Source: a virus. From it: 21,851 bases of DNA. The number at the start of each line of letters is the position of its first letter. The first letter of the stretch is position 1. Positions 7,131-19,954 of the stretch are shown piece after piece. The notes below the pieces were generated by a model. It saw only the letters and a program-made list of their open reading frames with translations. It was not told where the DNA came from and ran no database searches. The stretch spans positions 1 through 21,851 of IMG/VR virus record IMGVR_UViG_3300021137_000115. One strand, written 5' to 3'. A program made the translations under genes and the position numbers.

Positions 7131-7216
7131 TGTGGTGTATATCACAAACTATTTTTAAAAGATGTCCGAATTGTATGCATTTTGGAGTTGAAAATGTCAG
7201 ACCCCTATGATTTAAT
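7131..7216 (+). promoter_or_regulatory. ATGTCAG-box promoter P1 with upstream CRP-like site
   Basis: CRP-like site TGTGGTGTATATCACA (7131-7146); TGTCCGA at 7163; box ATGTCAG 7194-7200; TGA-TTTAAT with hexamer 7211-7216. Site to box is 63 bp. It drives the operon 7263-8278 and lies just upstream of the ATG at 7263, so an earlier in-frame ATG at 7182 is not the start. Confidence 0.7.
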
Positions 7217-7262
7217 TATCTTATTGAAAGGGAAAGACCCAATCAAAAGAAAGGTTCAGAAA

Positions 7263-7478
7263 ATGAACACTAAATACTCAGTATATCAAGAGTTCAAGGC
7301 TGACGAGTTCGTTGGTTCACTTGAAGAGTGCAAGGCTTATATCGCTGAAGAGCTTGCAGAGTTGGATGCGTTAGAACAACGCATGATAAATGAGAATTGG
7401 GAAGAGGACGAGCGTTTCGTCCCATTCCGTCCAGAGTTCTTCATATCAGAAGAACAAAACAAGAAAGGTTGGTTGTAA
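7263..7478 (+). CDS. Hypothetical acidic helical protein
   Basis: 71 residues. Starts MNTKYSVYQEFKADEF; the middle is a Glu-rich helix (SLEECKAYIAEELAELDALE). No known domain. An in-frame ATG at 7182 would place promoter P1 inside the gene. The ATG at 7263 has GAAAGG about 9 nt upstream and lies downstream of the -10, so it is chosen. First gene of the P1 operon. Confidence 0.8.
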   Translation: MNTKYSVYQEFKADEFVGSLEECKAYIAEELAELDALEQRMINENWEEDERFVPFRPEFFISEEQNKKGWL

Positions 7479-7479
7479 A

Positions 7480-7584
7480 ATGAAAGATTGGCGTAATCAA
7501 GAGCTAGAATGCTCAGATTGTGGTAAAGTCCAAGCTTGGGATACTTGCACACTGTGTCAAGTAAAAAAGCTAAAGCTTAACTAA
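7480..7584 (+). CDS. 34-residue zinc-ribbon micro-protein
   Basis: Starts MKDWRNQELECSDCG and contains two CxxC knuckles (CSDC and CTLC) separated by 11 residues, enough for one zinc. GAAAGG lies upstream and the ATG is 1 nt after the previous stop. A longer frame starting at 7390 is only the overlap with the preceding gene. Function unknown; nucleic-acid or protein binding is the usual role for such ribbons. Confidence 0.75.
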   Translation: MKDWRNQELECSDCGKVQAWDTCTLCQVKKLKLN

Positions 7585-7600
7585 TAAAATTAAATAAAAT

Positions 7601-7633
7601 CCTGTGAGCCCTAGAAATAGGCAAATAATCAGG
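7601..7633 (+). ncRNA. Two-level hairpin in an mRNA leader
   Basis: An outer CCTG (7601-7604) pairs with CAGG (7630-7633) around an inner hairpin GCCCTA-GAAA-TAGGC (7608-7622, one bulged C). It lies in the 87-nt leader of the gene at 7672. It could be a regulatory or RNA-processing structure. I do not recognise it as a known riboswitch. Confidence 0.4.
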
Positions 7634-7671
7634 TCAGCAAATAAAAGAAAGTATCTTGAAAGGATAACTAA

Positions 7672-7833
7672 ATGAAAATGAAACTACACTTTCCAGCAGA
7701 GTCTGGATATAATGTTAAAGAATCTGCAACTTGCCGTTGTGGAAAGACTATCCGCTACTGGCGTGGTAGCCCGCTATCCACTTGGATGGCTACTGATTCA
7801 GGTATCTATTGTGAAGGTAAGGTGACAGAATAA
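7672..7833 (+). CDS. 53-residue Cys-containing micro-protein
   Basis: Starts MKMKLHFPAESGYNVKESAT, then CRCGKTIRYWRG and a later single Cys near the end (GIYCEG), so there are only three cysteines in the CxC-Cx pattern. GAAAGG precedes the ATG. The stop overlaps the next start (TAATG). Short basic domain of the type often found in actinophage accessory regions; function unknown. Confidence 0.75.
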   Translation: MKMKLHFPAESGYNVKESATCRCGKTIRYWRGSPLSTWMATDSGIYCEGKVTE

Positions 7834-7976
7834 TGTCATACTCATTTGATAAAACTAATGACCGTTGGTCTGAACTAGCAGACGATTACCAATCTATGCT
7901 AGATGAATTGGCTTCTGAGGACATGGAAGATGTCTTTATCCCCGTTGCACACTTTGACCCTGATGAGGTGTTGTAG
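7833..7976 (+). CDS. SYSFDK micro-protein, copy 1
   Basis: 47 residues, starting MSYSFDKTNDRWSELAD, then a helical segment YQSMLDELA and an acidic C-terminus. The first 17 codons are almost identical at DNA level to the gene at 8704, so a recent duplication is clear. AAGGTGA precedes the ATG, which overlaps the previous stop. Function unknown. Confidence 0.8.
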   Translation: MSYSFDKTNDRWSELADDYQSMLDELASEDMEDVFIPVAHFDPDEVL

Positions 7977-7977
7977 T

Positions 7978-8079
7978 ATGGAAAAAGATATTTTTGGTTT
8001 CGCTGATGCGATACAACTAGACCACTTAACAGATGAACAACTAACAGTTGTTGAAGATATTTTTAAAGATTGGAAATAA
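7978..8079 (+). CDS. IFGFADAIQLDHL micro-protein, copy 1
   Basis: 33 residues: MEKDIFGFADAIQLDHL then LTDEQLTVVEDIFKDWK, a single predicted helix-turn-helix-like or amphipathic pair. A homologue lies at 9119. ATG is 1 nt after the previous stop with GAGG upstream. Function unknown. Confidence 0.75.
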   Translation: MEKDIFGFADAIQLDHLTDEQLTVVEDIFKDWK

Positions 8080-8083
8080 ATAA

Positions 8084-8278
8084 ATGATGACTCGTAAAGA
8101 TTATGTTTCTATCGCTAAGATTCTTAATTCATATTTGACAGAATATAATTCTGAATCCCGCCCGTCATTCGTTGCAGAGTTTGATGATTCGTTGGTTCAA
8201 CCTTTTATTAAAATGTTTGCAAAAGATAATCCTAACTTTGATGAAAATAAATTTTGGGATGCGTGTTTCGGAGATTAA
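8084..8278 (+). CDS. MTRKDY family phage protein, copy 1
   Basis: 64 residues. The layout MTRKDYV--A-ILNSY, then V--F---FIKMFAKDN-NFD---FW-ACF is shared with the genes at 8938 and 10776 and with a family of small proteins common in actinobacterial phages (from memory). All helical; function unknown. An ATG-ATG start leaves a one-residue ambiguity. Last gene of the P1 operon; the intergenic regulatory block begins 14 nt after its stop. Confidence 0.85.
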   Translation: MMTRKDYVSIAKILNSYLTEYNSESRPSFVAEFDDSLVQPFIKMFAKDNPNFDENKFWDACFGD

Positions 8279-8291
8279 TTTCTCCGCTGTT

Positions 8292-8332
8292 GGGCCGACC
8301 CACCGACCCGCACTCGGGCGTGTCGCTTACGG
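8292..8332 (+). repeat. GGGCCGACC element, copy 1 (with 8-bp internal duplication)
   Basis: Begins GGGCCGACC, carries an extra CACCGACC, then continues as the consensus to TCGCTTACGG. Immediately abuts the CRP-like site of P2. Confidence 0.85.
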
Positions 8333-8419
8333 TGTGATTAAGCTCACAAAAATAGTTTTTTTTGGTGTCCGATTTGTACACATATACTGACGGGTAATGT
8401 CAGACCCCCCTGCTATAGT
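8333..8419 (+). promoter_or_regulatory. ATGTCAG-box promoter P2 with perfect CRP-like site
   Basis: CRP-like site TGTGATTAAGCTCACA (8333-8348); T-run; TGTCCGA at 8366; box ATGTCAG 8397-8403; TGC-TATAGT, hexamer 8414-8419. Site to box is 64 bp. Drives 8477-9223. Confidence 0.8.
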
Positions 8420-8476
8420 TACACTATAAGAAATTAACAAAGGTTGTTAGTTTAACTTAAAAGAAAGGAAGTCAAA

Positions 8477-8701
8477 ATGACTTCACTAAATGAATACTAT
8501 AATGAAATCCGTATGGATATTGCTAAAGACTTTGGCTTTGAGGCTGGTGGTTATTCTCCCCGCCCTAGTAATGTTCTCCCTGTTGATATTGCTCTCCGTA
8601 TCGCTAAGAAATATCCTAGCGAACAGCGTTTTGTTCCTAATCTTAAAGCAGTTGTAATCGCTCAGCGTTACTTCTCTCTAATGATGAAAGGTGGCAAGTA
8701 A
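8477..8701 (+). CDS. Hypothetical protein, 74 residues
   Basis: Starts MTSLNEYYNEIRMDIAKDFG; helical, basic C-terminus (RYFSLMMKGGK). No family recognised. GAAAGG precedes the ATG in a leader (GAAAGGAAGTCAAA) closely similar to those at 9472 and 9763, showing that the leaders were copied along with the promoters. First gene after P2. Confidence 0.8.
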   Translation: MTSLNEYYNEIRMDIAKDFGFEAGGYSPRPSNVLPVDIALRIAKKYPSEQRFVPNLKAVVIAQRYFSLMMKGGK

Positions 8702-8703
8702 TA

Positions 8704-8847
8704 ATGTCATACTCATTTGATAAAACTAATGACCGCTGGTCTGAACTAGCAGACGAATATCAGTCAATGCTAGATGAACTAGCAGAGTCAGAATCTGAAT
8801 CTGTTTTTATTCCTGTTGATAACTTTGATGAATTGGAAATCTTGTAA
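8704..8847 (+). CDS. SYSFDK micro-protein, copy 2
   Basis: 47 residues, MSYSFDKTNDRWSELADEYQ at the start, then acidic (AESESESVFIP). Same length as copy 1 at 7833, with near-identical DNA over about the first 50 nt and drift afterwards, mostly at third positions. Translation probably starts from AAAGG in the previous gene's end. Function unknown. Confidence 0.8.
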   Translation: MSYSFDKTNDRWSELADEYQSMLDELAESESESVFIPVDNFDELEIL

Positions 8848-8937
8848 ATGAAAAAAAATAAATGTCTAAATTGTAAAACAATTCTAATCCCTAAGTTTTG
8901 GGTATTGTGTCATAATTGCTTGAAAGGTGTTAAATAA
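8848..8937 (+). CDS. 29-residue zinc-ribbon micro-protein
   Basis: MKKNKCLNCKTILIPKFW then VLCHNCLKGVK: two CxxC knuckles, strongly basic. The ATG touches the previous stop. In the first cassette this position holds a different gene, so it was inserted or lost during duplication. Function unknown. Confidence 0.7.
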   Translation: MKKNKCLNCKTILIPKFWVLCHNCLKGVK

Positions 8938-9129
8938 ATGATGACTCGTAAAGATTATATTGCTACCGCTTCAATTCTTAATACTTATCTAAAGCGTAAC
9001 AATTCAGAATCACACCCGCAACTTGTTGCAGAGTTTGATGAATTGGTGCAAGACTTTATTTATTATTTTGAGAAAGATAATCCTAATTTTGATTCCGATA
9101 AGTTTTGGGAGGCTTGTTTTGGAGAATAA
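8938..9129 (+). CDS. MTRKDY family phage protein, copy 2
   Basis: 63 residues, MMTRKDYIATASILNTYLKR at the start and YYFEKDNPNFDSDKFWEACF at the end; clear paralogue of the gene at 8084. GAAAGG upstream; the ATG touches the previous stop. It overlaps the next gene by 11 nt. Function unknown. Confidence 0.85.
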   Translation: MMTRKDYIATASILNTYLKRNNSESHPQLVAEFDELVQDFIYYFEKDNPNFDSDKFWEACFGE

Positions 9130-9223
9130 AGATATTTTTGGTTTTGCAGATGCAATTCAACTAGACCACTTAAATCTAGAACAACTAAAAGAATTAGAAA
9201 AAATTCTAGATAAAATAAAATAA
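9119..9223 (+). CDS. IFGFADAIQLDHL micro-protein, copy 2, TTG start
   Basis: 34 residues (TTG)ENKDIFGFADAIQLDHL then LNLEQLKELEKILDKIK. Homology to the gene at 7978 fixes the frame and the start: the TTG at 9119 has GGGAGG 6 nt upstream, whereas the longer in-frame extension back to 9023 lies wholly inside the preceding MTRKDY gene. Gene order relative to copy 1 is reversed (here it follows MTRKDY). Confidence 0.75.
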   Translation: MENKDIFGFADAIQLDHLNLEQLKELEKILDKIK

Positions 9224-9228
9224 AAAAT

Positions 9229-9265
9229 AAAATTCGCAATTTGTATTTTACATTTTGCGAATTTT
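9229..9265. terminator. Bidirectional-type hairpin after the P2 operon
   Basis: A perfect 11-bp inverted repeat, AAAATTCGCAA (9229-9239) and TTGCGAATTTT (9255-9265), with a 15-nt loop. It ends in TTTT and immediately precedes the next regulatory block. Weak U-tract, so termination may be partial. Confidence 0.6.
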
Positions 9266-9296
9266 GGGCCGACCCGCACTCGGGCGTGTCTTACGG
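9266..9296 (+). repeat. GGGCCGACC element, copy 2 (solo, 2-nt deletion)
   Basis: Same element lacking GC before TTACGG. No CRP-like site or promoter follows; copy 3 begins 25 nt later, so this looks like a decayed tandem copy. Confidence 0.85.
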
Positions 9297-9321
9297 GGAT
9301 CAGATATTACTGTTAGATCAT

Positions 9322-9354
9322 GGGCCGACCCGCACTCGGGCGTGTCGCTTACGG
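9322..9354 (+). repeat. GGGCCGACC element, copy 3 (consensus)
   Basis: Full 33-bp form directly followed by the CRP-like site of P3. Copies 1 and 3 extend their identity through the CRP-like site, T-run, TGTCCGATTTGTA and ATGTCAGACCCCCCTGCTAT to the -10. Confidence 0.9.
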
Positions 9355-9441
9355 TGTGATTAAGCTCACAAAAATAGTTTTTTTACGTGTCCGATTTGTA
9401 CGCATATACTGGCGGGTAATGTCAGACCCCCCTGCTATAAT
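9355..9441 (+). promoter_or_regulatory. ATGTCAG-box promoter P3 with perfect CRP-like site
   Basis: TGTGATTAAGCTCACA (9355-9370); TGTCCGA at 9388; box 9419-9425; TGC-TATAAT, hexamer 9436-9441. Site to box is 64 bp, identical to P2. Drives 9472. Confidence 0.85.
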
Positions 9442-9471
9442 ACTCATATAAACAAAAGAAAGGAATTCCAA

Positions 9472-9657
9472 ATGAATTCACTAATTATCAAAGGTGGTTG
9501 CACAAGCCACGAAAATTGCCCAAACGAATTTTATATGGAATGGGATAAATGCACAACCTGTGGCATTTATGTCAACGTAGACCAAGAGTTTAACGAGGGT
9601 GATGAAATTGAGTATGGTTGCCCGAATTGTGGCGATTTGCACAAATTCTCTGTGTGA
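9472..9657 (+). CDS. Zinc-binding small protein with two knuckle pairs
   Basis: 61 residues. CTSHENC at 10-16, CTTCG near 27 and GCPNCGDLHKF near the C-terminus give six Cys and two His, enough for one or two zincs. GAAAGG precedes the ATG. Its last three codons (TCT GTG TGA) form the left arm of the CRP-like site of the next promoter. Function unknown. Confidence 0.8.
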   Translation: MNSLIIKGGCTSHENCPNEFYMEWDKCTTCGIYVNVDQEFNEGDEIEYGCPNCGDLHKFSV

Positions 9658-9728
9658 TTCACTTCACACAAAATAATTAAATAAACACGGCGTGTCGCCT
9701 TGATTTTTAGCAGAAAGTCTGCTAGAAT
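9653..9728 (+). promoter_or_regulatory. Promoter P4: CRP-like site plus ordinary -35/-10
   Basis: Extended palindrome TGTGTGATTCACTTCACACA with core 9653-9668, overlapping the preceding stop codon; GGCGTGTCGC at 9690; TTGATT 9700-9705, 17 nt, TAGAAT 9723-9728 with TGC before it. No ATGTCAG box, but the CRP site is 53 bp from the point where the box would start, in phase with P2/P3. Confidence 0.7.
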
Positions 9729-9762
9729 ACTCAGTATTAGAAACTAAAGAAAGGTGGTCAAA

Positions 9763-9954
9763 ATGACTACACTAAATCAAACTAACATATTCGCTTCACT
9801 TGAGATTTCAGGTGCTTTAGAAAATCGTATTATCCATGAATACAATAATGGCGGTATTAAATCTGCCTATGGCTTGTCTAACTACAAGCGAGCTGTAATC
9901 ATTAAATATCTATTTAGTGAAAATCCTAAGTGCTACTGTGTGGAGTGCTTGTAA
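9763..9954 (+). CDS. Hypothetical protein with C-terminal CYCVEC
   Basis: 63 residues starting MTTLNQTNIFASLEISG. The ATG at 9763 follows GAAAGG in a leader like that of 8477; a GTG at 9754 would overlap the ribosome site and is rejected. Helical body, then a cysteine cluster CYCVECL at the end. The stop overlaps the next start (TAATG). Function unknown. Confidence 0.75.
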   Translation: MTTLNQTNIFASLEISGALENRIIHEYNNGGIKSAYGLSNYKRAVIIKYLFSENPKCYCVECL

Positions 9955-10040
9955 TGAAAACTCTCATAATGCTAGCACTGCTTGTCAGTGCCTTCGTGTA
10001 TAATTATCTCAACAATAAGAAATGGAAGCACTTAGACTAA
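9954..10040 (+). CDS. 28-residue membrane peptide
   Basis: MKTLIMLALLVSAFVYNYLN then NKKWKHLD: one hydrophobic helix and a basic tail. GGAG precedes it, and both ends overlap neighbours in TAATG junctions. The neighbour is an exported peptide, so the pair may act at the cell envelope. Function unknown. Confidence 0.65.
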   Translation: MKTLIMLALLVSAFVYNYLNNKKWKHLD

Positions 10041-10198
10041 TGAAAAAGATTATATTCTCTCTAGTGGTAATTCTTCTCCTAATTATCACAAGTCCCGCCC
10101 AAGCCCGTGGCACTCATATCTCTGGCGTATTTAAAGCGCCTCATAACTCAATCATATGGCATAAACAGAATTTGGTTCGTCAGAAGCGTAGCTTCTAA
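10040..10198 (+). CDS. Small exported cationic peptide with signal sequence
   Basis: 52 residues: basic start MKKIIF, hydrophobic core LVVILLLIITS, then PAQA-RG as a probable signal-peptidase site after residue 22. The mature part is about 30 residues, basic and His-rich (GTHISGVFKAPHNSIIWHKQ), without cysteines. A phage product secreted through the host Sec pathway could be a superinfection-exclusion or envelope factor; this is inference. Confidence 0.7.
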   Translation: MKKIIFSLVVILLLIITSPAQARGTHISGVFKAPHNSIIWHKQNLVRQKRSF

Positions 10199-10202
10199 AC
10201 CA

Positions 10203-10225
10203 ATGTCAGACCCTAGTGCTATACT
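10203..10225 (+). promoter_or_regulatory. ATGTCAG-box promoter P5
   Basis: Box ATGTCAG 10203-10209; TGC-TATACT, hexamer 10220-10225. No CRP-like site or GGGCCGACC element upstream. Drives 10264 and 10511. Confidence 0.8.
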
Positions 10226-10263
10226 AGGGATATAACCAACCAACAAGAAAAGGAAAAGAAACA

Positions 10264-10425
10264 ATGACAGTAGCAAACAAGACTTATCAGGTAGGCGATT
10301 TGTTCACGACTCAGAAATCAAAGGTAACAGGCGTAATCAAGGCAATAGAGCCAAAGTCTCCAAACTCAACACTAGTTCTTCTTGATGTTGATGGCGAGGA
10401 ACGCTTTACAACCGTTACTTTCTAA
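10264..10425 (+). CDS. YQxGDLFTT beta-barrel-like small protein, copy 1
   Basis: 53 residues. YQVGDLFTTQKSKVTGVIK then TLVLLDVDGEERFTTVTF: alternating strands as in a small SH3-like barrel. Paralogue of the next gene. This type is common in actinophage accessory regions (from memory). Own promoter P5 and AAAGGAAAAG before the ATG. Function unknown. Confidence 0.8.
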   Translation: MTVANKTYQVGDLFTTQKSKVTGVIKAIEPKSPNSTLVLLDVDGEERFTTVTF

Positions 10426-10447
10426 GTTTCGGGAAATACTCGAAAAG

Positions 10448-10473
10448 TCCTGAGCAAGACTAAAAACTGCTCA
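10448..10473 (+). ncRNA. Conserved 26-nt hairpin, copy 1
   Basis: TCC-TGAGCA-loop-TGCTCA with an 11-nt A-rich loop, in the leader of the gene at 10511. It is 24/26 identical to the copy at 10966, with both differences in the loop. A second small stem TTTCG/CGAAA lies just upstream (10427-10445). Confidence 0.55.
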
Positions 10474-10510
10474 ACAACCCAACAAAAGAAAAAAAAGAAA
10501 AGGAAAACTA

Positions 10511-10681
10511 ATGTCACTCAACGGATATACTTATCAAATCGGAGATTTGTTCACAACCAGCAAGACAGGAATCACAGGACGAATCCGTGACTTCACACCA
10601 ATCAACAACAAGCTAACTCGTGTTGGTCTAACTCTTGCAAATGGTTCATATCGTTTTGCAATGGTAAAAACCTCAAAGTAA
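10511..10681 (+). CDS. YQxGDLFTT beta-barrel-like small protein, copy 2
   Basis: 56 residues, MSLNGYTYQIGDLFTTSKTG at the start and LTLANGSYRFAMVKTSK at the end; paralogue of 10264 with the same strand pattern. AAAAGGAAAA precedes the ATG. Its leader carries the conserved hairpin. Function unknown. Confidence 0.8.
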   Translation: MSLNGYTYQIGDLFTTSKTGITGRIRDFTPINNKLTRVGLTLANGSYRFAMVKTSK

Positions 10682-10682
10682 T

Positions 10683-10690
10683 GCTATAAT
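10683..10690 (+). promoter_or_regulatory. Extended -10 promoter P6
   Basis: TGC-TATAAT with the hexamer at 10685-10690, 1 nt after the preceding stop codon. No ATGTCAG box, no clear -35. The leader to 10776 is 85 nt and contains the inverted repeat TAATAA/TTATTA. Confidence 0.55.
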
Positions 10691-10775
10691 AAAACGAAAC
10701 AGGGGAAGTTTGTGAGTGTTCTAACCCAATGTCGTAAGTAATAACTCTCCTTATTAAAAAGGAAAACGAACTAAA

Positions 10776-10958
10776 ATGATGACTCGCAAAGACTATGTAG
10801 CAACCGCAGAAATTCTAAATTCTTATGGCTCAGAAATGAAGTTAGAAGTGTTTGAGGATTTAGTAAATGATTTTGCAGAAATGTTTGCAGCAGATAATGA
10901 AAGATTTGACTCAGATAGATTCTGGGATGAATGTTTTAAAACTGTAAATCACAATTAA
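10776..10958 (+). CDS. MTRKDY family phage protein, copy 3
   Basis: 60 residues, MMTRKDYVATAEILNSYGSE at the start, FAEMFAADNERFDSDRFWDE near the end. Third paralogue after 8084 and 8938, and closest to what I recall of this family in other actinophages. ATG-ATG start with AAAAGG upstream. Stands alone behind P6. Function unknown. Confidence 0.85.
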   Translation: MMTRKDYVATAEILNSYGSEMKLEVFEDLVNDFAEMFAADNERFDSDRFWDECFKTVNHN

Positions 10959-10965
10959 ATAAAAT

Positions 10966-10991
10966 TCCTGAGCAAGAATTAAAACTGCTCA
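10966..10991 (+). ncRNA. Conserved 26-nt hairpin, copy 2
   Basis: TCC-TGAGCA-loop-TGCTCA, the same 6-bp stem and 11-nt A-rich loop as at 10448. Here it follows a gene and precedes a GGGCCGACC element rather than sitting in a leader, so a terminator or RNA-processing role is also possible. Confidence 0.55.
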
Positions 10992-11031
10992 TGATCCATA
11001 ATAGTTAATTGAAAGTTCAACTACCTGATGC

Positions 11032-11064
11032 GGGCCGACCCGCACTCGGGCGTGTCGCTTACGG
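11032..11064 (+). repeat. GGGCCGACC element, copy 4 (consensus)
   Basis: Full 33-bp form, directly followed by the CRP-like site of P7. Confidence 0.9.
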
Positions 11065-11151
11065 GGTGAGATTAATCACAATTTTTGAGCGTCTCACAAT
11101 ATGGAATTACTGGCGGGTAAGTAGAATAATGTCAGTACGTTCTGTTATACT
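11065..11151 (+). promoter_or_regulatory. ATGTCAG-box promoter P7 with CRP-like site
   Basis: GGTGAGATTAATCACA (11065-11080); GGCGGGTAA at 11112; box ATGTCAG 11129-11135; TGT-TATACT, hexamer 11146-11151. Site to box is 64 bp, as in P2/P3, although the intervening sequence differs. Drives 11180-12271. Confidence 0.8.
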
Positions 11152-11179
11152 ATGGGTATCAAGAGAAAGAAGGTCAGAA

Positions 11180-11296
11180 ATGAACCTAGAAGAATATAAG
11201 GCGTACGTCCTAGAGACACGCAAAGCAAATGCAGAAAAAGCGATGTCAGTCCTATCTGCTACAATATCAACAACAAAGAAAGAAGGTAGCAAATAA
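11180..11296 (+). CDS. 38-residue helical micro-protein
   Basis: MNLEEYKAYVLETRKANAEK then AMSVLSATISTTKKEGSK: one amphipathic helix and a basic tail. AGAAAGAAGG precedes the ATG. An in-frame extension back to 11009 would run through the GGGCCGACC element, the CRP-like site and P7, and is rejected. First gene after P7. Function unknown. Confidence 0.7.
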   Translation: MNLEEYKAYVLETRKANAEKAMSVLSATISTTKKEGSK

Positions 11297-11297
11297 T

Positions 11298-11519
11298 ATG
11301 CTAATCTCAGAAGCCCTAGAAGGCAAATTCGTAAAGTCCTCACAAGGACAAGGCATAATTCAGTATGCGGAGTTTCGTAACAATATGCGACACTCTACAC
11401 CAGAAGGATACCTTGCCTATTCTGTTAAGGTTCGCCCAAATTGGAATGGCACAGGATTTCCTAAGCCAGATTTCTTCACGACAATTTATGTCGGATTGGA
11501 TAGTGAACTAAATGACTAA
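11298..11519 (+). CDS. Hypothetical protein, 73 residues, beta-rich
   Basis: Starts MLISEALEGKFVKSSQGQGI; aromatic and strand-rich (YLAYSVKVRPNW, FFTTIYVGLD). The start at 11298 follows AGAAGG and lies 1 nt after the previous stop. It overlaps the next gene by 8 nt. No family recognised. Confidence 0.75.
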   Translation: MLISEALEGKFVKSSQGQGIIQYAEFRNNMRHSTPEGYLAYSVKVRPNWNGTGFPKPDFFTTIYVGLDSELND

Positions 11520-12271: not shown

Positions 12272-12297
12272 TTATGCGTGATCCCGTATAACTATGC

Positions 12298-12330
12298 GGG
12301 CCGACCCGCACTCGGGCGTGTCGCTTACGG
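12298..12330 (+). repeat. GGGCCGACC element, copy 5 (consensus)
   Basis: Full 33-bp form. Its GGCGTGTCG (12315-12323) is answered by the inverted CGACACGCC at 12350-12358, on the other side of the CRP-like site. Confidence 0.9.
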
Positions 12331-12396
12331 GGTGATATTAATCACACTACGACACGCCGAGATTTTGTTGAGAATGTCAGTGTAGTCTGCTATAAT
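12331..12396 (+). promoter_or_regulatory. ATGTCAG-box promoter P8 with CRP-like site nested in a palindrome
   Basis: GGTGATATTAATCACA (12331-12346) lies between GGCGTGTCG and CGACACGCC; box ATGTCAG 12374-12380; TGC-TATAAT, hexamer 12391-12396. Site to box is 43 bp, exactly 21 bp (two helical turns) less than P2/P3/P7. Drives 12424. Confidence 0.82.
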
Positions 12397-13594: not shown

Positions 13595-13624
13595 TATTTA
13601 AAGCTTGACAAATGCTGCGATCTC

Positions 13625-13657
13625 GGGCCGACCCGCACTCGGGCGTGTCGCTTACGA
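13625..13657 (+). repeat. GGGCCGACC element, copy 6
   Basis: Full-length, ending TTACGA instead of TTACGG; directly followed by the CRP-like site of P10. Confidence 0.9.
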
Positions 13658-13755
13658 TGTGAGATTAATCACTTTTAAAAATTCCGACATTACGGACAAA
13701 TGTTTGCTAGGTTTTGTTTTTAAGATAGACAAATGTCACCCCTGTCTGGTAAGAT
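13658..13755 (+). promoter_or_regulatory. ATGTCAG-type promoter P10 with CRP-like site
   Basis: TGTGAGATTAATCACT (13658-13673); GACATTACGGAC at 13686; variant box ATGTCAC 13733-13739; TGG-TAAGAT, hexamer 13750-13755. Site to box is 75 bp, one helical turn more than P2/P3/P7. Drives the DUF932 gene. Confidence 0.75.
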
Positions 13756-13782: not shown

Positions 13783-14823
13783 ATGACCAATGTCATGTCA
13801 CAAGTTCACCGCTCAGAGGTTGAGTCTGGTGAAGTTTCACTCGCTGTTGCAACACGCACCAATCCTGCGTGGCACTCTTTTGCAAACAAGGTTTTTGCTA
13901 AAGACGAAAATGTAACAACCGCACAAATGCTTGATGGTGCTAAGCTATCAAATTGGAATGTATCACTAGAATCTGTTAGTGATTTATTGCCAGACAACTA
14001 CACAACTGTAAACGAGAATTTTCTCGTTACTCGTGACAATCCTTATACAGCAGGACAAAAAGATGTGCTGTCTGTTGTAGGCTCTCGCTATAAGACAGTT
14101 CAGAATGAAGATTTATTTTCATTCGCTGATAATCTCCATGACGGCAATCAGGATGTTTATTGGGAATCTGCGGGTTCTCTAAAGAATGGTCGTGTAGTAT
14201 TTGGCACAATGTCAATTCCCCGCACTATTGTTCTTGACCCTAGTGGTGCTAATGATACAACTAATCTTTATCTAGTTGTTTATACCTCGCATGACGGTTC
14301 TGTTGCTGTTCAATCTGCTATTACACCTGTTCGGGTAATGTGCCAGAACACTCTCAACCTTGCAATGCGTAAGGCTAAGCAATCTTTCAAAATCCGCCAC
14401 ACTCAAACTGTAGACGGAAAAATTGCAGCAGCTCGTGAGGCTTTAGGTCTTACTTTTGCTTATGCAGATGAATTTGAAAAAGAGGCACAAGAGCTTTTCA
14501 AGATTGAAGTCTCAAATGCTAAGTTTTCAGAAATCATCAACAAGATGTATCCTAAGCCAGAAGTAGACAAAAAGGGTTCAATCAAAAAGTGGGAGAACAA
14601 GGTTGTTCTGCTTGACGAGTTGTATCACAATTCGCCTACCAATGCTAACATCAAGGGTACAGCGTGGGGCGTTGTTAATGCTCTCACAGAACGCCTTGAT
14701 TACTATCGCACAGCTCGCAAGGGTAATAGCGATACACTTATGGCTGGTGCTTCAGGATTTGACCCTGTAATCACAGCAGAAAAAAATAAAATTGTTAAGC
14801 AGGTTCTTGCTTTAACAAAATAA
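13783..14823 (+). CDS. DUF932 phage/plasmid-like protein
   Basis: 346 residues, the largest accessory gene. Family landmarks in order: NPAWHSFANKVF, VGSRYKTVQNEDLFSFADNL, VVYTSHDGSVAVQ, TPVRVMCQNTLNLAM, FKIRHTQTVDGKIAAAREAL and KGTAWGVVNALTERLDYYRT, matching the DUF932/TIGR03299 family found in phages and plasmids. Biochemical role is unsettled; a part in DNA metabolism is often proposed. AACGAAAGG precedes the ATG. Single-gene unit between promoter P10 and its own terminator. GC-richer codon use than the left arm. Confidence 0.92.
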   Translation: MTNVMSQVHRSEVESGEVSLAVATRTNPAWHSFANKVFAKDENVTTAQMLDGAKLSNWNVSLESVSDLLPDNYTTVNENFLVTRDNPYTAGQKDVLSVVGSRYKTVQNEDLFSFADNLHDGNQDVYWESAGSLKNGRVVFGTMSIPRTIVLDPSGANDTTNLYLVVYTSHDGSVAVQSAITPVRVMCQNTLNLAMRKAKQSFKIRHTQTVDGKIAAAREALGLTFAYADEFEKEAQELFKIEVSNAKFSEIINKMYPKPEVDKKGSIKKWENKVVLLDELYHNSPTNANIKGTAWGVVNALTERLDYYRTARKGNSDTLMAGASGFDPVITAEKNKIVKQVLALTK

Positions 14824-14893: not shown

Positions 14894-14948
14894 GGGCCGA
14901 CCCGTGTGATTTGCAGCACAAATTACGATATTACGGCGTGTCGCTACG
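14894..14948 (+). repeat. GGGCCGACC element, copy 7, split around a CRP-like site
   Basis: The left part GGGCCGACCCG (14894-14904) and the right part GGCGTGTCGCTACG (14935-14948) of the element flank the CRP-like site TGTGATTTGCAGCACA (14905-14920) and ATTACG repeats. Confidence 0.7.
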
Positions 14949-14975
14949 AATAATGTCAGTGGGCTATGCTACAAT
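14905..14975 (+). promoter_or_regulatory. ATGTCAG-box promoter P11 of the tRNA gene
   Basis: CRP-like TGTGATTTGCAGCACA (14905-14920); box ATGTCAG 14953-14959; TGC-TACAAT, hexamer 14970-14975. A start about 7 nt after the hexamer leaves a tRNA leader of 2-3 nt. Site to box is 48 bp, which is about half a turn out of phase with the others. Confidence 0.8.
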
Positions 14976-14984: not shown

Positions 14985-15058
14985 GGTTCAGTAGTTCAGT
15001 TGGTTAGAACGCCACCCTGTCACGGTGGAGGTCGGGGGTTCAAGTCCCCTCTGAGCCG
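14985..15058 (+). tRNA. tRNA-Asp (anticodon GTC)
   Basis: 74 nt without CCA. Acceptor GGTTCAG pairs with CTGAGCC (one G-T pair). D stem GTTC/GAAC; anticodon stem CCACC/GGTGG with loop CTGTCAC (anticodon GTC reads GAC and GAT). T arm GGGGG-TTCAAGT-CCCC with GGTTCAAGTCC. Discriminator G followed by CAA, so CCA must be added. Canonical and probably functional. It has its own box promoter and no other tRNA is near. Confidence 0.97.
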
Positions 15059-15063
15059 CAAGA

Positions 15064-15086
15064 GTGTCAGACCTATATGGTATGAT
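15064..15086 (+). promoter_or_regulatory. ATGTCAG-type promoter P12
   Basis: Variant box GTGTCAG 15064-15070, 5 nt after the tRNA; TGG-TATGAT, hexamer 15081-15086. Drives 15113-15665. Confidence 0.75.
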
Positions 15087-15112
15087 ACCAATATCAACGA
15101 AAGGATAACTAA

Positions 15113-15665: not shown

Positions 15666-15934
15666 TGGCAGTTATTACACTACAAGTTCCTAATCCCGCC
15701 CAAATGGGATATGGGCTGGGTAAGGCTATGCAGTATGGCGTAGAATATGAAGTTCTAAATGACTTACAAGTTGAGCTAACTTCTGCTGATGAGATGAAAT
15801 TGGCAAAGATGATTGTAGCTTTTCGTGGCAAGTTGCTAGATGTAAGTACAACTAAACAAGTATCGGGTGATTTGCCAAAGTATGAGGTTCAGTATGCTCG
15901 TACCAATCGCCCTATCCAAACCCGCAAGAAGTAA
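15665..15934 (+). CDS. Hypothetical basic protein, 89 residues
   Basis: MAVITLQVPNPAQMGYGLGK onward, one helical segment (SADEMKLAKMIVAFRG) and a basic C-terminus (TNRPIQTRKK). AGAAGG upstream, TAATG overlap. The stop overlaps the box of P14. No family recognised. Confidence 0.8.
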   Translation: MAVITLQVPNPAQMGYGLGKAMQYGVEYEVLNDLQVELTSADEMKLAKMIVAFRGKLLDVSTTKQVSGDLPKYEVQYARTNRPIQTRKK

Positions 15935-15956
15935 TGTCAGACCCCTCTGATATACT
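15934..15956 (+). promoter_or_regulatory. ATGTCAG-box promoter P14
   Basis: Box ATGTCAG 15934-15940; TGA-TATACT, hexamer 15951-15956. No CRP-like site. Drives 15996. Confidence 0.8.
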
Positions 15957-15995
15957 AACACCTCAAACCCCAACAAAAGAAAAGGAAATAAAAAC

Positions 15996-16415
15996 ATGGC
16001 AAGTCGCTCAATCACAGTAAAGGTAGCAACATCAAAGGTAATCGCCGCTTTGGAAACAAAGTTGGCACAAATCCAAAATGACTTCGTAAATCAAGACCAG
16101 CTAGAGGCAAAGTTCCAGCAAGACCTTCGGGCTTGGAATAAGGCTTTAACTGAATATGCTTTGGCAAACATTGACAAGGCAGAAAACTTCCGAACCAGCT
16201 ACCGCTCTTGGTCAAACTCTCTTAACATTGACTTTGATGTTGATACAAAGGGCAAGGACTTCCCTGCTCAACCTGAGCGGGACTTTGAGCAAATCCATCG
16301 CCACTCATATAACGAGATGGTACAGGAAATTACCAACGCCTTGTCTATCCTAAAGATGACAGACGAGGAAACAGTAAATGCCTCAACCATGAAGTCAATC
16401 GCAAAGTATCTCTAA
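15996..16415 (+). CDS. Helical coiled-coil-like protein, 139 residues
   Basis: MASRSITVKVATSKVIAALE, a long helix (KLAQIQNDFVNQDQLEAKFQ), then ALTEYALANIDKAENF and a C-terminal helix. No cysteine and no catalytic motif. AAAAGGAAA precedes the ATG. Single-gene unit between P14 and a GC hairpin. Of a type found widely in actinophages but without known function. Confidence 0.82.
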   Translation: MASRSITVKVATSKVIAALETKLAQIQNDFVNQDQLEAKFQQDLRAWNKALTEYALANIDKAENFRTSYRSWSNSLNIDFDVDTKGKDFPAQPERDFEQIHRHSYNEMVQEITNALSILKMTDEETVNASTMKSIAKYL

Positions 16416-16428
16416 GTAGATAATCTTG

Positions 16429-16455
16429 GCGGGTGGGGTTAAAGTTCCCACCCGC
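16429..16455 (+). terminator. GC hairpin after the 15996 gene
   Basis: Perfect 9-bp inverted repeat GCGGGTGGG (16429-16437) and CCCACCCGC (16447-16455), loop of 9 nt. No U-tract follows, so termination is likely but not typical. Confidence 0.6.
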
Positions 16456-16466
16456 TACCTTCCCTA

Positions 16467-16495
16467 TTGACAGAAGCAAGAAGATGAGATAGGAT
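16467..16495 (+). promoter_or_regulatory. Consensus -35 promoter for a leaderless transcript
   Basis: TTGACA 16467-16472, 17 nt, TAGGAT 16490-16495. The predicted start is at or next to the ATG at 16502. No ATGTCAG box. Confidence 0.7.
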
Positions 16496-16501
16496 AGCCC
16501 A

Positions 16502-16570
16502 ATGGACACAATTATATTCGTATTAACAATAGCCGCAATCTTTCTAGTTATCGCAGGAGGTATCTTTTAA
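16502..16570 (+). CDS. 22-residue membrane peptide, probably leaderless
   Basis: MDTIIFVLTIAAIFLVIAGG then IF: almost entirely one hydrophobic helix. No ribosome site; the ATG is about 7 nt after the -10, fitting leaderless translation as is common in Actinobacteria. The peptide's GCAGGAGG codons double as the ribosome site of the next gene, so a leader-peptide role in coupling is also possible. Confidence 0.6.
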   Translation: MDTIIFVLTIAAIFLVIAGGIF

Positions 16571-16917
16571 TGGGTGCAAGAACAAATTATACAATCATCG
16601 CCACAGAAAACCCCGCCCAAAATATAAATGTGTATGCACATTGGGACGGAGATGATTCTGTAGCAATCATGCAGAACGCAATCAAGGCTGCTATGCCTCG
16701 TATCCAAATGGGTGATTTATCCTATGCCACCCGTATCTTGATTGACCAACTAACTAAGCACGGGCGGGATTCAGAAACAGGTTATGGTCTTTATATCAGC
16801 GAAGATATCCTAACCGAAGAACAATATGAGCGCAAGGTAATTGACTTAGTTAAACAAACAGTCAGAGTTGGTAGCATGCAATTTCAGCTAGACCAATTTG
16901 TAGAGGTCTTAACATGA
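16570..16917 (+). CDS. Conserved actinophage-type hypothetical protein, 115 residues
   Basis: MGARTNYTIIATENPAQNIN, YAHWDGDDSV, AAMPRIQMGDLSYATRILID, ETGYGLYISED. A similar layout (TNY/TNTVI near the start, WDG, a helix, then GYG-Y) recurs in small actinophage proteins from memory; function unknown. AGGAGG upstream; overlaps the 22-residue peptide (TAATG) and the next gene (ATGA). Confidence 0.8.
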   Translation: MGARTNYTIIATENPAQNINVYAHWDGDDSVAIMQNAIKAAMPRIQMGDLSYATRILIDQLTKHGRDSETGYGLYISEDILTEEQYERKVIDLVKQTVRVGSMQFQLDQFVEVLT

Positions 16918-17078
16918 CCTCTACAGACTACAAGCCATATACCATAGATGAATTGGTGACAGCGATCTATGAAGATAATCTAGGGCATTTTGAGTTCATG
17001 GAAAATATGAACGGTGGCGATTGCGAATGTAGTCTGCATGTGACTATGCAAACTATTTTACATTATTGGGACGAGTAG
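16914..17078 (+). CDS. 54-residue hypothetical protein with CxC
   Basis: MTSTDYKPYTIDELVTAIYE then GGDCECSLHVTMQTILHYWD: helix, CxC, helix. ATGA overlap with the previous gene; GAGG upstream. Function unknown. Confidence 0.75.
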   Translation: MTSTDYKPYTIDELVTAIYEDNLGHFEFMENMNGGDCECSLHVTMQTILHYWDE

Positions 17079-17083
17079 AGGCG

Positions 17084-17092
17084 GGGCCGACC
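17084..17092 (+). repeat. GGGCCGACC element, copy 8 (remnant)
   Basis: Only the first 9 bp remain, followed by AAAACGGACATTTCAGAC and a TTACGA array. Confidence 0.55.
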
Positions 17093-17112
17093 AAAACGGA
17101 CATTTCAGACAA

Positions 17113-17176
17113 TTACGAATATGATGAAAATCACATTTACGAAAGGCTTACGAATACTTGACATATTGGCTTACGA
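17113..17176 (+). repeat. Four TTACGA copies in a promoter region
   Basis: TTACGA at 17113, 17137, 17148 and 17171, the last three preceded by T or GC, interleaved with a CRP-like site and the -35/-10 below. The same word ends the GGGCCGACC element and forms the core of the ACATTACGA repeats at 19658-19954. Confidence 0.55.
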
Positions 17177-17187
17177 TAGGATAAAAT
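17120..17187 (+). promoter_or_regulatory. CRP-like site and consensus -35 promoter for a leaderless gene
   Basis: TATGATGAAAATCACA (17120-17135); TTGACA 17159-17164, 17-18 nt, TAAAAT 17182-17187. The predicted start is at the ATG at 17194. The site is 45 bp from the position equivalent to the box. No ATGTCAG box. Confidence 0.65.
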
Positions 17188-17193
17188 GACCCT

Positions 17194-17415
17194 ATGACAC
17201 TAGAAATATATGAAATAGATTATTCAGTCTCTCCAAATGGAAGAAATGTATTTGAGATCTATGATGAGTCTGGGCAATATATCACAGAATTTGATAACAT
17301 GATTGAAGCTCATAAATGGTGTGATGCTATGGAAGAAGATTATACTGTGCATCTTCTTACTACTTATCATAGACAATTTGAAGAAGATAATATCTCCAAC
17401 ACTCCCGCCGAATAG
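17194..17415 (+). CDS. Hypothetical acidic protein, 73 residues, probably leaderless
   Basis: MTLEIYEIDYSVSPNGRNVF onward; beta-strands then a helix (DNMIEAHKWCDAMEED). No ribosome site (sequence before the ATG is AATGACCCT), and the ATG lies about 7 nt after the -10, so a leaderless mRNA fits. No family recognised. Confidence 0.75.
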   Translation: MTLEIYEIDYSVSPNGRNVFEIYDESGQYITEFDNMIEAHKWCDAMEEDYTVHLLTTYHRQFEEDNISNTPAE

Positions 17416-17419
17416 ACCA

Positions 17420-17442
17420 ATGTCAGACCCCTATGCTACAAT
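17420..17442 (+). promoter_or_regulatory. ATGTCAG-box promoter P15
   Basis: Box ATGTCAG 17420-17426; TGC-TACAAT, hexamer 17437-17442. Drives 17471 and 17640. Confidence 0.82.
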
Positions 17443-17470
17443 ATCACCATAACCCAACGAAAGGACAACA

Positions 17471-17647
17471 ATGAAATACAAAGTATATTCTACCTATACT
17501 CAATACTATGTTGATGAAGTAGAAGCTGACTCACCTGACCATGCAAAGTCTATTGTAGATAATCTAGATATTGACGACCTAAACTTTGATGAATTTACGT
17601 TTACTATTGACAATGTAGAGGAAGCAGGGGATTCTGAAAATGCCTAA
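17471..17647 (+). CDS. 58-residue hypothetical acidic protein
   Basis: MKYKVYSTYTQYYVDEVEAD then SPDHAKSIVDNLDIDD: strand, V-EADS turn, helix; same pattern as 11512 and 15113, a small alpha-beta fold. ACGAAAGGA precedes the ATG; 8-nt overlap with the next gene. Function unknown. Confidence 0.78.
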   Translation: MKYKVYSTYTQYYVDEVEADSPDHAKSIVDNLDIDDLNFDEFTFTIDNVEEAGDSENA

Positions 17648-18335
17648 CTGGGTATATAACAGCGTTTCAATTTATGGCAATGCCTCAGATATTGCCAAAG
17701 TAAAATCACAACTTAATCAACCATTCACAATGACCCACAACAACTACAATGTTGAAACAGGTCAGTTTGAAGACCAATTAACTACTTATTCAAATCCTGT
17801 CTTTGCTTTCTGGAATATCATTAAACCAACAGACATGGACACATATTATCTTCAGAAAGACCCAAATGAAGATAAGACTGTCTTGTTCTCTGGCAATAAC
17901 TGGTATGACTGGAATGTACGCAATTGGGGTACAAAATGGGATGTTGCTGTAGCTGATAATGATAAGTATCCTGAAACTGAGTTAACAGATGAGAATGCAA
18001 ATAATCTTATCTATCACTTTAATACAGCATGGTCTTATCCTGAACCCGCCGTCATGAAGTTGGCAGAACAGTATCCTGATTTAACCTTTAATCTTGACTA
18101 TGAGGAAGAAACAGGCTGGGGTGGGGAGATTGAATACCGCCTTGGTGACCGCCATGTTAAACAAGACTATGATTCAAAGTGCCGTGACTGTGGTGCTAAT
18201 GACACATTAGACTATTGTGAAGATTGTGAGAATGAAGTATGTTCTGCTTGCGGCTATGGCAACGAAGAAGCCGAGGCAAACCAATGTCAGACCCATATGG
18301 TAGAATCTGATTCCAACGAAAAGGAGAACGCATAA
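17640..18335 (+). CDS. Api92/YubB-like ferredoxin-fold protein with C-terminal zinc region
   Basis: 231 residues. MPNWVYNSVSIYGNASDIAK, FAFWNIIKPTD, NWYDWNVRNWGTKWDVAV, FNTAWSYPEPAVMKLAEQYP and GWGGEIEYRLGD match the DUF1281/YubB ferredoxin-like family of phages and plasmids, whose function is unknown. After residue 175 comes CRDCG, CEDC, CSACG, C: three zinc knuckles that are not part of that family, so this looks like a fusion. The last 18 residues are encoded across promoter P16 and the next ribosome site. AGGGGA upstream of the ATG. Confidence 0.85.
   Translation: MPNWVYNSVSIYGNASDIAKVKSQLNQPFTMTHNNYNVETGQFEDQLTTYSNPVFAFWNIIKPTDMDTYYLQKDPNEDKTVLFSGNNWYDWNVRNWGTKWDVAVADNDKYPETELTDENANNLIYHFNTAWSYPEPAVMKLAEQYPDLTFNLDYEEETGWGGEIEYRLGDRHVKQDYDSKCRDCGANDTLDYCEDCENEVCSACGYGNEEAEANQCQTHMVESDSNEKENA
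18284..18306 (+). promoter_or_regulatory. ATGTCAG-box promoter P16, inside the 17640 gene
   Basis: Box ATGTCAG 18284-18290; TGG-TAGAAT, hexamer 18301-18306, within the 3' end of the preceding gene. Drives 18335-19520. Confidence 0.78.
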
Positions 18336-18616
18336 TGGATACCCAACTTGACCCATATCTTGCCAAGCAAGTTGCTATTGGCATGGACGGTGCAGACATC
18401 ATGCACGGTCACCTCAAGGGCTTATTGCTTGAAGCTGAACAACAACTAGAACGTGCTCAAGAAGACGAGGACGTTTCGGGCGAAGCCATGGATAGCATGG
18501 AACGTCGTTACTGGGAAGGTGTTACAGAAGCCTATAGCGAACTATACGCCTTGACCTATGCTATTGCTTTTGAAGCGGGAGTTGTTAAAGAAAACCGAAA
18601 GGACGGGCACCTCTAA
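18335..18616 (+). CDS. Hypothetical helical protein, 93 residues
   Basis: MDTQLDPYLAKQVAIGMDGA onward; long helices (LLEAEQQLERAQEDED, ERRYWEGVTEAYSELYALTY). No cysteine or catalytic motif. AAAGGAGAA upstream; TAATG overlaps at both ends. First gene of the P16 operon. No family recognised. Confidence 0.82.
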   Translation: MDTQLDPYLAKQVAIGMDGADIMHGHLKGLLLEAEQQLERAQEDEDVSGEAMDSMERRYWEGVTEAYSELYALTYAIAFEAGVVKENRKDGHL

Positions 18617-18762
18617 TGGAAGTCTTAGAATATATCAAACAACACGTAGAAGAGTTAATTGAAGAATTCAATGATGAATCTGACCCTAATTATCAAACAG
18701 ATTATCTACAAGGATGTATTGAATCACTAGAACATGTCCTAGCAAAGTTTGGAGCAAAGTAA
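18616..18762 (+). CDS. 48-residue acidic helical protein
   Basis: MEVLEYIKQHVEELIEEFND, then YLQGCIESLEHVLAKFGAK: two amphipathic helices, possibly dimerising. GAAAGG upstream; TAATG overlaps. Function unknown. Confidence 0.78.
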   Translation: MEVLEYIKQHVEELIEEFNDESDPNYQTDYLQGCIESLEHVLAKFGAK

Positions 18763-18956
18763 TGGATGATGAATTTATTATAGAGTTTTTTAAAACTATG
18801 TACGAAAACTTTGGTCAATGGGCAGTAATTAATTTTATTAAGGACCGCCAATTAAATGGTCAATTACAACACGTACATTGGCATGAATGTGGCGGGTGTG
18901 AAGAATATACACCATTTTTGGATAGCTGTCTAGTATGCGGGGGCTCATATGTCTAA
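18762..18956 (+). CDS. Zinc-knuckle protein, 64 residues
   Basis: A helical N-terminus (DDEFIIEFFKTMYENFGQWA) then HVHWHECGGCEEY and CLVCGGSYV: a His-rich CxxC-CxxC zinc ribbon at the C-terminus. GGAG upstream; overlaps the next gene by 8 nt. Function unknown. Confidence 0.8.
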   Translation: MDDEFIIEFFKTMYENFGQWAVINFIKDRQLNGQLQHVHWHECGGCEEYTPFLDSCLVCGGSYV

Positions 18957-19245
18957 TATTAATATGATGGTTCAAACTAACTCTTATCTGGATAATTTGA
19001 ATCGGGAATATCCTGATGCTAATCCAATTGTATTGCTGTATATGTGGGACCTTATCCGTAATGTGTATGATGAAATTAGTTATGATCCTTCAGCTTTTGA
19101 AGTAGTTCCCGCCCCTGGTGTGGGACTGGAGCAGATATGGTCCAAGTTTGAAAAGGACCCATGGGGCGACTTTGACGTAGAGTCCTTCCATGTGGTAGAC
19201 TGGATGACCGAAGAGGGACTACTTACAGAATGGGACGGGGAGTAA
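18949..19245 (+). CDS. Hypothetical acidic protein, 98 residues
   Basis: MSNINMMVQTNSYLDNLNRE onward. Contains NPIVLLYMWDLIRNVYDEIS, VVPAPGVGLEQIWSKFEKD and a C-terminal VVDWMTEEGLLTEW. No known family. Its VPAP segment is encoded by one of the CCCGCC words. GGGGG upstream; the next ribosome site lies in its last codons. Confidence 0.8.
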   Translation: MSNINMMVQTNSYLDNLNREYPDANPIVLLYMWDLIRNVYDEISYDPSAFEVVPAPGVGLEQIWSKFEKDPWGDFDVESFHVVDWMTEEGLLTEWDGE

Positions 19246-19247
19246 CA

Positions 19248-19520
19248 ATGGCCAAGAACGTAACACAGAAACTTCATGATTCTATTGTAACTGGCATGTC
19301 TTCATATGAAGTATCACCTGCTGGTGCCGCATATAAAATGTTAGATGAATCTAGATTTGTTAATGAATCTACACTACAATATCTGCTTAATTATATTATT
19401 GTATGGGGCACACGAGATGAAGACCATGTTCCACCATATAACAAAGATGTTTATATTATCTGTAAGCAACTATACCGTATTCTGAAGGAGTTGGGCCTAA
19501 CGAATACTGGTTCTAGATAA
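19248..19520 (+). CDS. Hypothetical protein, 90 residues, last of the rightward array
   Basis: MAKNVTQKLHDSIVTGMSSY onward, helical (TLQYLLNYIIVWGTRDED, DVYIICKQLYRILKELG). Start 19248 is preferred over an in-frame ATG at 19230 because GGGGAG lies 6 nt upstream and it clears the preceding stop. Followed by a strong terminator. No family recognised. Confidence 0.8.
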   Translation: MAKNVTQKLHDSIVTGMSSYEVSPAGAAYKMLDESRFVNESTLQYLLNYIIVWGTRDEDHVPPYNKDVYIICKQLYRILKELGLTNTGSR

Positions 19521-19566
19521 TATAACAACAGGGCGTTCAGGCTATTCCCGCCAAGTCCTAAGTTAA

Positions 19567-19601
19567 CCCCACGGGTGGTGACCCCGTGGGGTTTTCTTTT
19601 T
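19567..19601 (+). terminator. Strong intrinsic terminator ending the rightward array
   Basis: CCCCACGGG (19567-19575) and CCCGTGGGG (19583-19591), perfect 9-bp stem, 7-nt loop, then TTTTCTTTTT. Confidence 0.95.
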
Positions 19602-19657
19602 GTCCACATATGTCCGAATTGTCCATTTTTAACGACAACGATTTTTTTCAGGATCCA

Positions 19658-19954
19658 GACATTACGAAGGGGCGGGAATTTCTACTGGTGACATTACGAA
19701 GATCCCAATATATCTATTTGTTATATATATAAGACATTACGAAGGAGATCAAATATCTATTTGTTCTGTGTATTTTGATCATATTATGTATCATGATTTT
19801 ATTTTACATAAAATTGATCAGATTTTACACAGAATATTACGAAATGTCTGCAAAAATCTGCAAATTATAGCAAAAATGCTCAGAAATATCAAGAAAATAT
19901 GCATGTATATGGTGTGATATATATCATATCTGCAAAATTTGACATTACGAGCGG
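19658..19954. repeat. Five direct ACATTACGA repeats
   Basis: ACATTACGAAGG at 19659, ACATTACGAAG at 19691, ACATTACGAAGG at 19734, ATATTACGAA at 19834 and ACATTACGAGCGG at 19942. Read on the other strand they are CTTCGTAATGT, sharing TAATGTC with the promoter box. A sixth copy (20683) lies inside a coding region. Confidence 0.8.
19690..19770. repeat. Imperfect tandem duplication of about 40 bp
   Basis: Unit 1 (19690-19732) and unit 2 (19733-19770) share GACATTACGAAG, GATC and AATATCTATTTGTT-type sequence with small gaps. Confidence 0.7.

Follow-up and report, generated by a model that had tools for sequence, protein, structure and literature searches.

Class I promoters of the cyclic AMP (cAMP) receptor protein CRP, as known from Escherichia coli and from Mycobacterium tuberculosis (CRP-Mt), carry a TGTGA-N6-TCACA site upstream of the core promoter and separated from it by whole helical turns; in E. 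coli these sites are centred at -61.5, -71.5, -82.5 and -92.5. Middle promoters of the T4 MotA type combine an extended -10 with a box near -30 and a weak or absent -35. At upstream sites CRP-Mt is an activator, and close to the start it is a repressor (PMC4117774). The GlxR protein of Corynebacterium glutamicum has the consensus TGTGANNTANNTCACA and usually activates (PMC4254451), and its binding is cAMP-dependent (PMC7999487). In coliphage T1, phage promoters answer to the host CRP, which represses them (PMC6737242). The window analysed here is a 21.9-kb fragment from IMG/VR (record IMGVR_UViG_3300021137_000115, positions 1 to 21,851), with genes for a class II ribonucleotide reductase, a glycosyltransferase and a DUF932 protein. 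Its plus-strand block, at about 7.1-20 kb, carries CRP/GlxR-like sites in helical phase with promoters, for which class I-type activation by a host CRP/GlxR protein is the best and a likely reading. Partial coverage of the literature on phage promoters, CRP, GlxR and freshwater actinophages yielded no account of a phage family whose promoters are preceded by phased CRP sites.

As at class I CRP promoters, the TGTGA-N6-TCACA sites lie upstream of the core promoter at whole-turn separations, with centres at approximately -55 to -97. Unlike those promoters, the phage sites are repeated over a whole gene block, the core promoters have a TGTCAG box 10 bp before the -10, and the binder is a candidate proposed from sequence. 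The GlxR regulon shares the consensus, and GlxR is closely related to the regulator found in the likely host order. Here, however, the sites are on phages, and in that order consensus sites are scarce and no class III adenylate cyclase was detected. As in coliphage T1, phage promoters would answer to host CRP, but the geometry here suggests activation, and of many promoters. The extended -10 with an upstream box is also reminiscent of MotA-type promoters, from which the TGTCAG box and its spacing differ. In Stanwilliamsviridae such as Jay2Jay, a small-gene block with the DUF932 gene is likewise divergent from the glycosyltransferase and ribonucleotide reductase genes, and the window has the other orientation.

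About 200 related viral loci were collected, 80 by a DUF932 search and at least 120 by a promoter pattern scan. In these loci and the window the pattern TGTCAG-N7-TGNTANNNT occurs 1316 times, and 690 promoters were left after dereplication at 85%. A TGTGA-N6-TCACA site starts 30-80 bp upstream in 268 of them, compared with 5-7 matches over the whole 200 bp for three control palindromes. The distance d was measured from the site start to the TGTCAG start, or to the equivalent position 16 bp before the -10. The 303 distances obtained peak at 34, 44, 54, 64-65 and 76 bp, with a smaller peak at 49 bp. A Rayleigh analysis of these distances gives 10.5 bp as the best period (R=0.68, n=303), and R rises to 0.80 when the 49-50 group is left out. 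Since clustering of the spacers by single linkage or global alignment merged nearly all of them (largest cluster 300 of 303 at E 0.01 and 205 at E 1e-6), spacers of the same length were dereplicated instead. At less than 60, 50 and 45% identity, with n of 144, 119 and 105, the phasing retained p values of approximately 3e-25, 4e-19 and 8e-15. A count centred on the sites, ignoring TGTCAG, placed 16, 47, 51 and 42 (25+17) extended -10 boxes at offsets of 50, 60, 70 and 80-81 over a background of 1.7 per offset. The phase is equal across all four relatedness groups (1.6-1.9 bp). DnaA boxes, which are likewise enriched in these upstream regions, are unphased (R=0.12). When relatives were scanned and distances set against a 10.5-bp period, as the original prediction had proposed, both the sites and their spacing were found to be conserved across a large phage family. 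The diverged contig L212, which has a different promoter, has a site at the equivalent of d=44 (read by hand).

Among the 690 promoters no site occurs from 32 bp upstream of the TGTCAG start through the scanned downstream bases, and none has d<33. An in-phase or near site is present at 260 of the 268 site-bearing promoters; the other 8 have a site at 48-50 bp alone, and six of these are visibly one promoter family. Over 10 bp, A/T content is 66% downstream of the site and 55% upstream. Three relatives of 108-120 kb have 13-14 sites each; a single block of about 20 kb holds the majority of these sites and almost all of the TGTCAG promoters. The block is on the plus strand in G001, where most long genes are on the minus strand, and the arrangement is reversed in G010 and G012. 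This layout suggests that the divergently transcribed block is probably the early block.

In the window itself, TGTGA-N6-TCACA occurs 12 times with at most one mismatch against 0.93 expected from dinucleotide shuffles, a 13-fold excess (Poisson P about 4e-10). Only the N6 spacing is enriched, other spacings of the same half-sites giving 0-4 matches, and TGTGA ranks second among all 1024 half-sites, behind an A/T-only word. The ten sites claimed in the original prediction are all present with no more than one mismatch each, and lie 50-92 bp upstream of a -10 box. Their d values are, in order of position, 64, 65, 65, 54, 65, 44, 76, 49, 46 and 34 bp; the first nine reproduce the distances given earlier with a constant offset of +1. 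Eight of the ten are within 1 bp of a 10.5-bp helical ladder. The two exceptions to phase already recognised in the prediction hold: the site at the tRNA promoter, 14905, is displaced by half a turn, and 17120 misses the ladder by 2.3 bp. The prediction had also placed every site but the last upstream of a promoter, which is correct for nine, but 19913 too precedes an in-phase promoter, TTGACA-N18-TATGCT at 19939-19968. Two further sites lie within genes, at 3603 (perfect) and 14673. The sites, their promoters and two genes of the block are as follows.

3603..3618, perfect TGTGACTATTCTCACA within the open reading frame 3553-4233, 111 bp upstream of a minus-strand TGATATACT; doubtful member
7131..7146, CRP/GlxR-like site TGTGGTGTATATCACA, d=64 to the TGTCAG box, 0.7 bp off the helical ladder
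7195..7216, plus strand, promoter TGTCAG-N7-TGA-TTTAAT, downstream of site 7131
8333..8348, CRP/GlxR-like site TGTGATTAAGCTCACA, d=65
8398..8419, plus strand, promoter TGTCAG-N7-TGC-TATAGT
9355..9370, CRP/GlxR-like site TGTGATTAAGCTCACA, d=65
9420..9441, plus strand, promoter TGTCAG-N7-TGC-TATAAT
9653..9668, CRP/GlxR-like site TGTGATTCACTTCACA, d=54
9700..9728, plus strand, promoter TTGATT-N17-TAGAAT, TG present, without a TGTCAG box
11065..11080, CRP/GlxR-like site GGTGAGATTAATCACA, d=65
11130..11151, plus strand, promoter TGTCAG-N7-TGT-TATACT
12331..12346, CRP/GlxR-like site GGTGATATTAATCACA, d=44
12368..12396, plus strand, promoter TTGAGA-N17-TATAAT, TGTCAG at 12375, TG present
13658..13673, CRP/GlxR-like site TGTGAGATTAATCACT, d=76
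13734..13755, plus strand, promoter TGTCAC-N7-TGG-TAAGAT of the DUF932 gene
13783..14823, plus strand, DUF932 protein gene (PF06067, E 2.5e-56), the bait for finding relatives
14905..14920, CRP/GlxR-like site TGTGATTTGCAGCACA, d=49, half a turn out of phase
14954..14975, plus strand, promoter TGTCAG-N7-TGC-TACAAT of tRNA-Asp
14985..15059, plus strand, tRNA-Asp (gtc)
17120..17135, CRP/GlxR-like site TATGATGAAAATCACA, d=46, about 2 bp off phase
17158..17187, plus strand, promoter TTGACA-N18-TAAAAT
19913..19928, CRP/GlxR-like site TGTGATATATATCATA, d=34, in phase
19939..19968, plus strand, promoter TTGACA-N18-TATGCT, TG present, unnoticed in the original prediction

The minus-strand TGATATACT near site 3603 could be the promoter of the glycosyltransferase gene. 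Five of the sites (8333, 9355, 11065, 12331 and 13658) belong to one repeated module, so the window has few independent placements and cannot prove the phasing by itself; it is convincing only once the relatives are added. Directly before these five sites is the GC-rich repeat GGGCCGACCCGCACTCGGGCGTGTCGCTTACGG, at 8299-8332, 9321-9354, 11031-11064, 12297-12330 and 13624-13657.

Among 95 distinct N6 sequences, whose bases were unselected in the search, 20% have a central TA, compared with 8% in the background. The frequency of T at spacer position 3 is 0.48 and that of A at position 4 is 0.52, and A is rare right after TGTGA, giving the consensus TGTGATnTAwATCACA. The logo of these putative operators agrees with that of GlxR, the central TA being common to both, and in this respect their description as CRP/GlxR-like is borne out. 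In a search of 25 large relatives, none of which is certified complete, no CRP-type helix-turn-helix protein (PF13545) was detected, and tblastn over 2.8 Mb was also negative. With no CRP-type protein detected in these phages, the most parsimonious candidate for the binder is a regulator of the host.

WhiB, an actinobacterial hallmark, is encoded by 23 of the 25 large relatives, and a related but diverged DUF932 phage contig sits in a 1.3-Mb Actinomycetota bin. Genomes in the order of this bin, the likely host order, are mostly 1.2-1.5 Mb, and by that size and the habitat the order is probably Nanopelagicales. A CRP-domain protein of approximately 230 amino acids, carrying a cyclic-nucleotide domain, is present in 58 of the 61 genomes of this order, and its gene adjoins an endonuclease III-like gene in the three loci read. 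An HTH_Crp_2 match in G026, of the same order, was set aside as a non-CRP protein, by its sequence a GntR-type regulator. The one CRP of this order that was compared is, among solved structures, closest to M. tuberculosis CRP and to GlxR; its helix-turn-helix is almost the same as that of CRP-Mt, and its recognition helix ASRETVNKALADFA is identical. In the putative host genomes L249, L250, L252 and L253 a TGTCAG-N7-TGGTAGAAT promoter stands directly before a carD-like gene. Since a similar promoter precedes this host gene, the TGTCAG box may be a host promoter element. The host contigs L295 and L296, which also match the TGTCAG promoter, have no recognisable phage gene.

For the binder, the activation, its contact with polymerase and the timing we infer the following. 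The sites would be operators at which the one CRP/GlxR-type activator of the host acts from class I-like positions. A CRP dimer on TGTGATnTAwATCACA would lie on the same face of the DNA as RNA polymerase, with its centre approximately 54, 64, 74, 85 or 96 bp before the predicted start, and could contact the C-terminal domain of the polymerase alpha subunit and thereby increase initiation. Its targets would be promoters with an extended -10 and usually a weak -35, driving the small genes of one divergently transcribed accessory block. This block would probably be expressed early, when host factors alone are available. Class I-like activation is the best reading because phasing to the -10 over five turns, with unrelated spacers, fits contact between an activator and polymerase rather than a roadblock or a terminator.

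Several points weigh against this reading. With the start predicted 12 bp downstream of the first -10 base, the sites would be centred at -54.5, -64.5, -74.5, -85 and -96.5, approximately 3 bp farther upstream than the E. coli class I series, though these start sites are guessed. Binding by the host CRP and activation of the promoters are predictions from sequence, and the host is deduced from WhiB, the one diverged contig in the Actinomycetota bin and genome size. A perfect site is found in 9 of the 61 host-order genomes, no more than for a reversed control, and 0.8 Mb of one such genome has 5 sites with no more than a single mismatch. A class III adenylate cyclase was detected in none of 41 actinobacterial genomes of the likely host order (the order of G026), in which a CRP orthologue is found, and a C. 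glutamicum control was positive. As proof of shared sites the host genomes were thus negative, the site being rare there; phylum-wide, 219 of 397 genomes have at least one. This leaves two readings: the true host may be a different actinobacterium, or the regulator may be cAMP-independent and used more by the phage than by its host. The original prediction tied the accessory genes to a host cAMP-receptor-type regulator. The regulator part of this claim is supported by the CRP/GlxR-like sites, their phasing and the lack of a detected phage CRP, but cAMP as the signal is doubtful because the likely host order has no detectable class III cyclase.

Among other explanations, a phage regulator unrelated in sequence to CRP could bind the TGTGA palindromes and activate the block after the initial phase of infection. 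Many phage genes are under these sites, yet the putative hosts hardly use the perfect site, and one of the many small block proteins that match no known family could bind DNA. We consider such a regulator unlikely, given the negative search for a CRP-type helix-turn-helix protein in 25 large relatives and by tblastn over 2.8 Mb, N6 preferences that fit those of GlxR (PMC4254451), and a suitable CRP orthologue in the likely host order. It is quite improbable that host CRP/GlxR binds but represses the block or bridges its DNA, silencing it by looping or in a nucleoid-associated role. In its favour, CRP-Mt behaves as a classical transcription factor at some of its sites only and approaches nucleoid-associated proteins in copy number (PMC4117774), the promoters of coliphage T1 are repressed by the host's CRP (PMC6737242), and looping could likewise profit from phasing. 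However, repression by roadblock or overlap would need a site at d<33, where none of the 690 promoters has one, and a register that stays fixed to the -10 while the number of whole turns varies is what marks contact with polymerase. That the palindrome is just part of a repeated intergenic module or a terminator hairpin, as the GGGCCGACCCGCACTCGGGCGTGTCGCTTACGG repeat shared by five window sites after gene ends might suggest, is very improbable and largely refuted by the relatives. The module core occurs only 6 times in the 690 upstream regions, where its positions are unrelated. One copy, folded as RNA, does not outdo its shuffled versions (z=-0.29), a scan found no plus-strand terminator at the sites, and phasing across unrelated spacers would be left unexplained.

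The ribonucleotide reductase and DUF932 proteins of the window are 66% and 54% identical, respectively, to those of Stanwilliamsviridae (Streptomyces phages Jay2Jay and LilMartin). Jay2Jay was rejected as a conserved case, as the 78.5 kb scanned contain no TGTCAG promoter and one CRP-like site; the phased signals therefore seem to go with the freshwater branch. The majority of small proteins in the accessory block match no known family, and INPHARED megablast with the accessory region gave no match. The block includes tandem-duplicated small genes at 7829-9227 and 10774-10946, the copies being 62-92% identical. The tRNA-Asp was uninformative as a host marker, its best match being 89% identical over part of the gene only.

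Other motifs also recur upstream of the promoters. CGACACGCC/GGCGTGTCG is approximately 29-fold enriched, at 186 of the 690 promoters and often at a fixed 18 and 26 bp before TGTCAG. Within it lies the core motif of WhiA, GACAC; WhiB is encoded by the phages. GGCGTGTC is found in the window at 8317, 9283, 9339, 9689, 11049, 12315, 13642 and 14935. Repeats of ATGTCCGA/TCGGACAT, approximately 38-fold enriched, lie downstream of the CRP-like site and upstream of the core promoter, in most cases 33 and 24 bp ahead of TGTCAG. TGTCCGA occurs in the window at 7100, 7163, 8366, 9388 and 19611. Perfect DnaA boxes (TTATCCACA) precede 94 of the 690 promoters and are concentrated in the accessory block, with none in the window. 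The word GACATTACG recurs in the window at 13686, 19658, 19690, 19733, 19941 and 20682, with three tandem copies near 19.7 kb.

We tentatively suggest that this phage family may have built a larger CRP regulon than its streamlined hosts, reusing a global regulator as a constitutive activator of early genes. The host would have one CRP/GlxR, not clearly tied to cAMP, and almost no consensus sites, and each phage about a dozen near-perfect phased sites, mostly in one block, possibly combined with WhiA-core-like (GACAC) motifs, TGTCCGA and DnaA boxes. The twist is that the likely hosts apparently lack class III adenylate cyclases and hardly use the consensus sites. For this widespread and uncultured group of lake viruses, the phased sites provide a clear promoter grammar that can be tested, and the group's hundreds of natural promoters are an evolutionary experiment on activator-polymerase geometry, with whole-turn spacing over five turns. 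If the host CRP does bind these sites, phage gene expression would be tied to a global regulator of the host.

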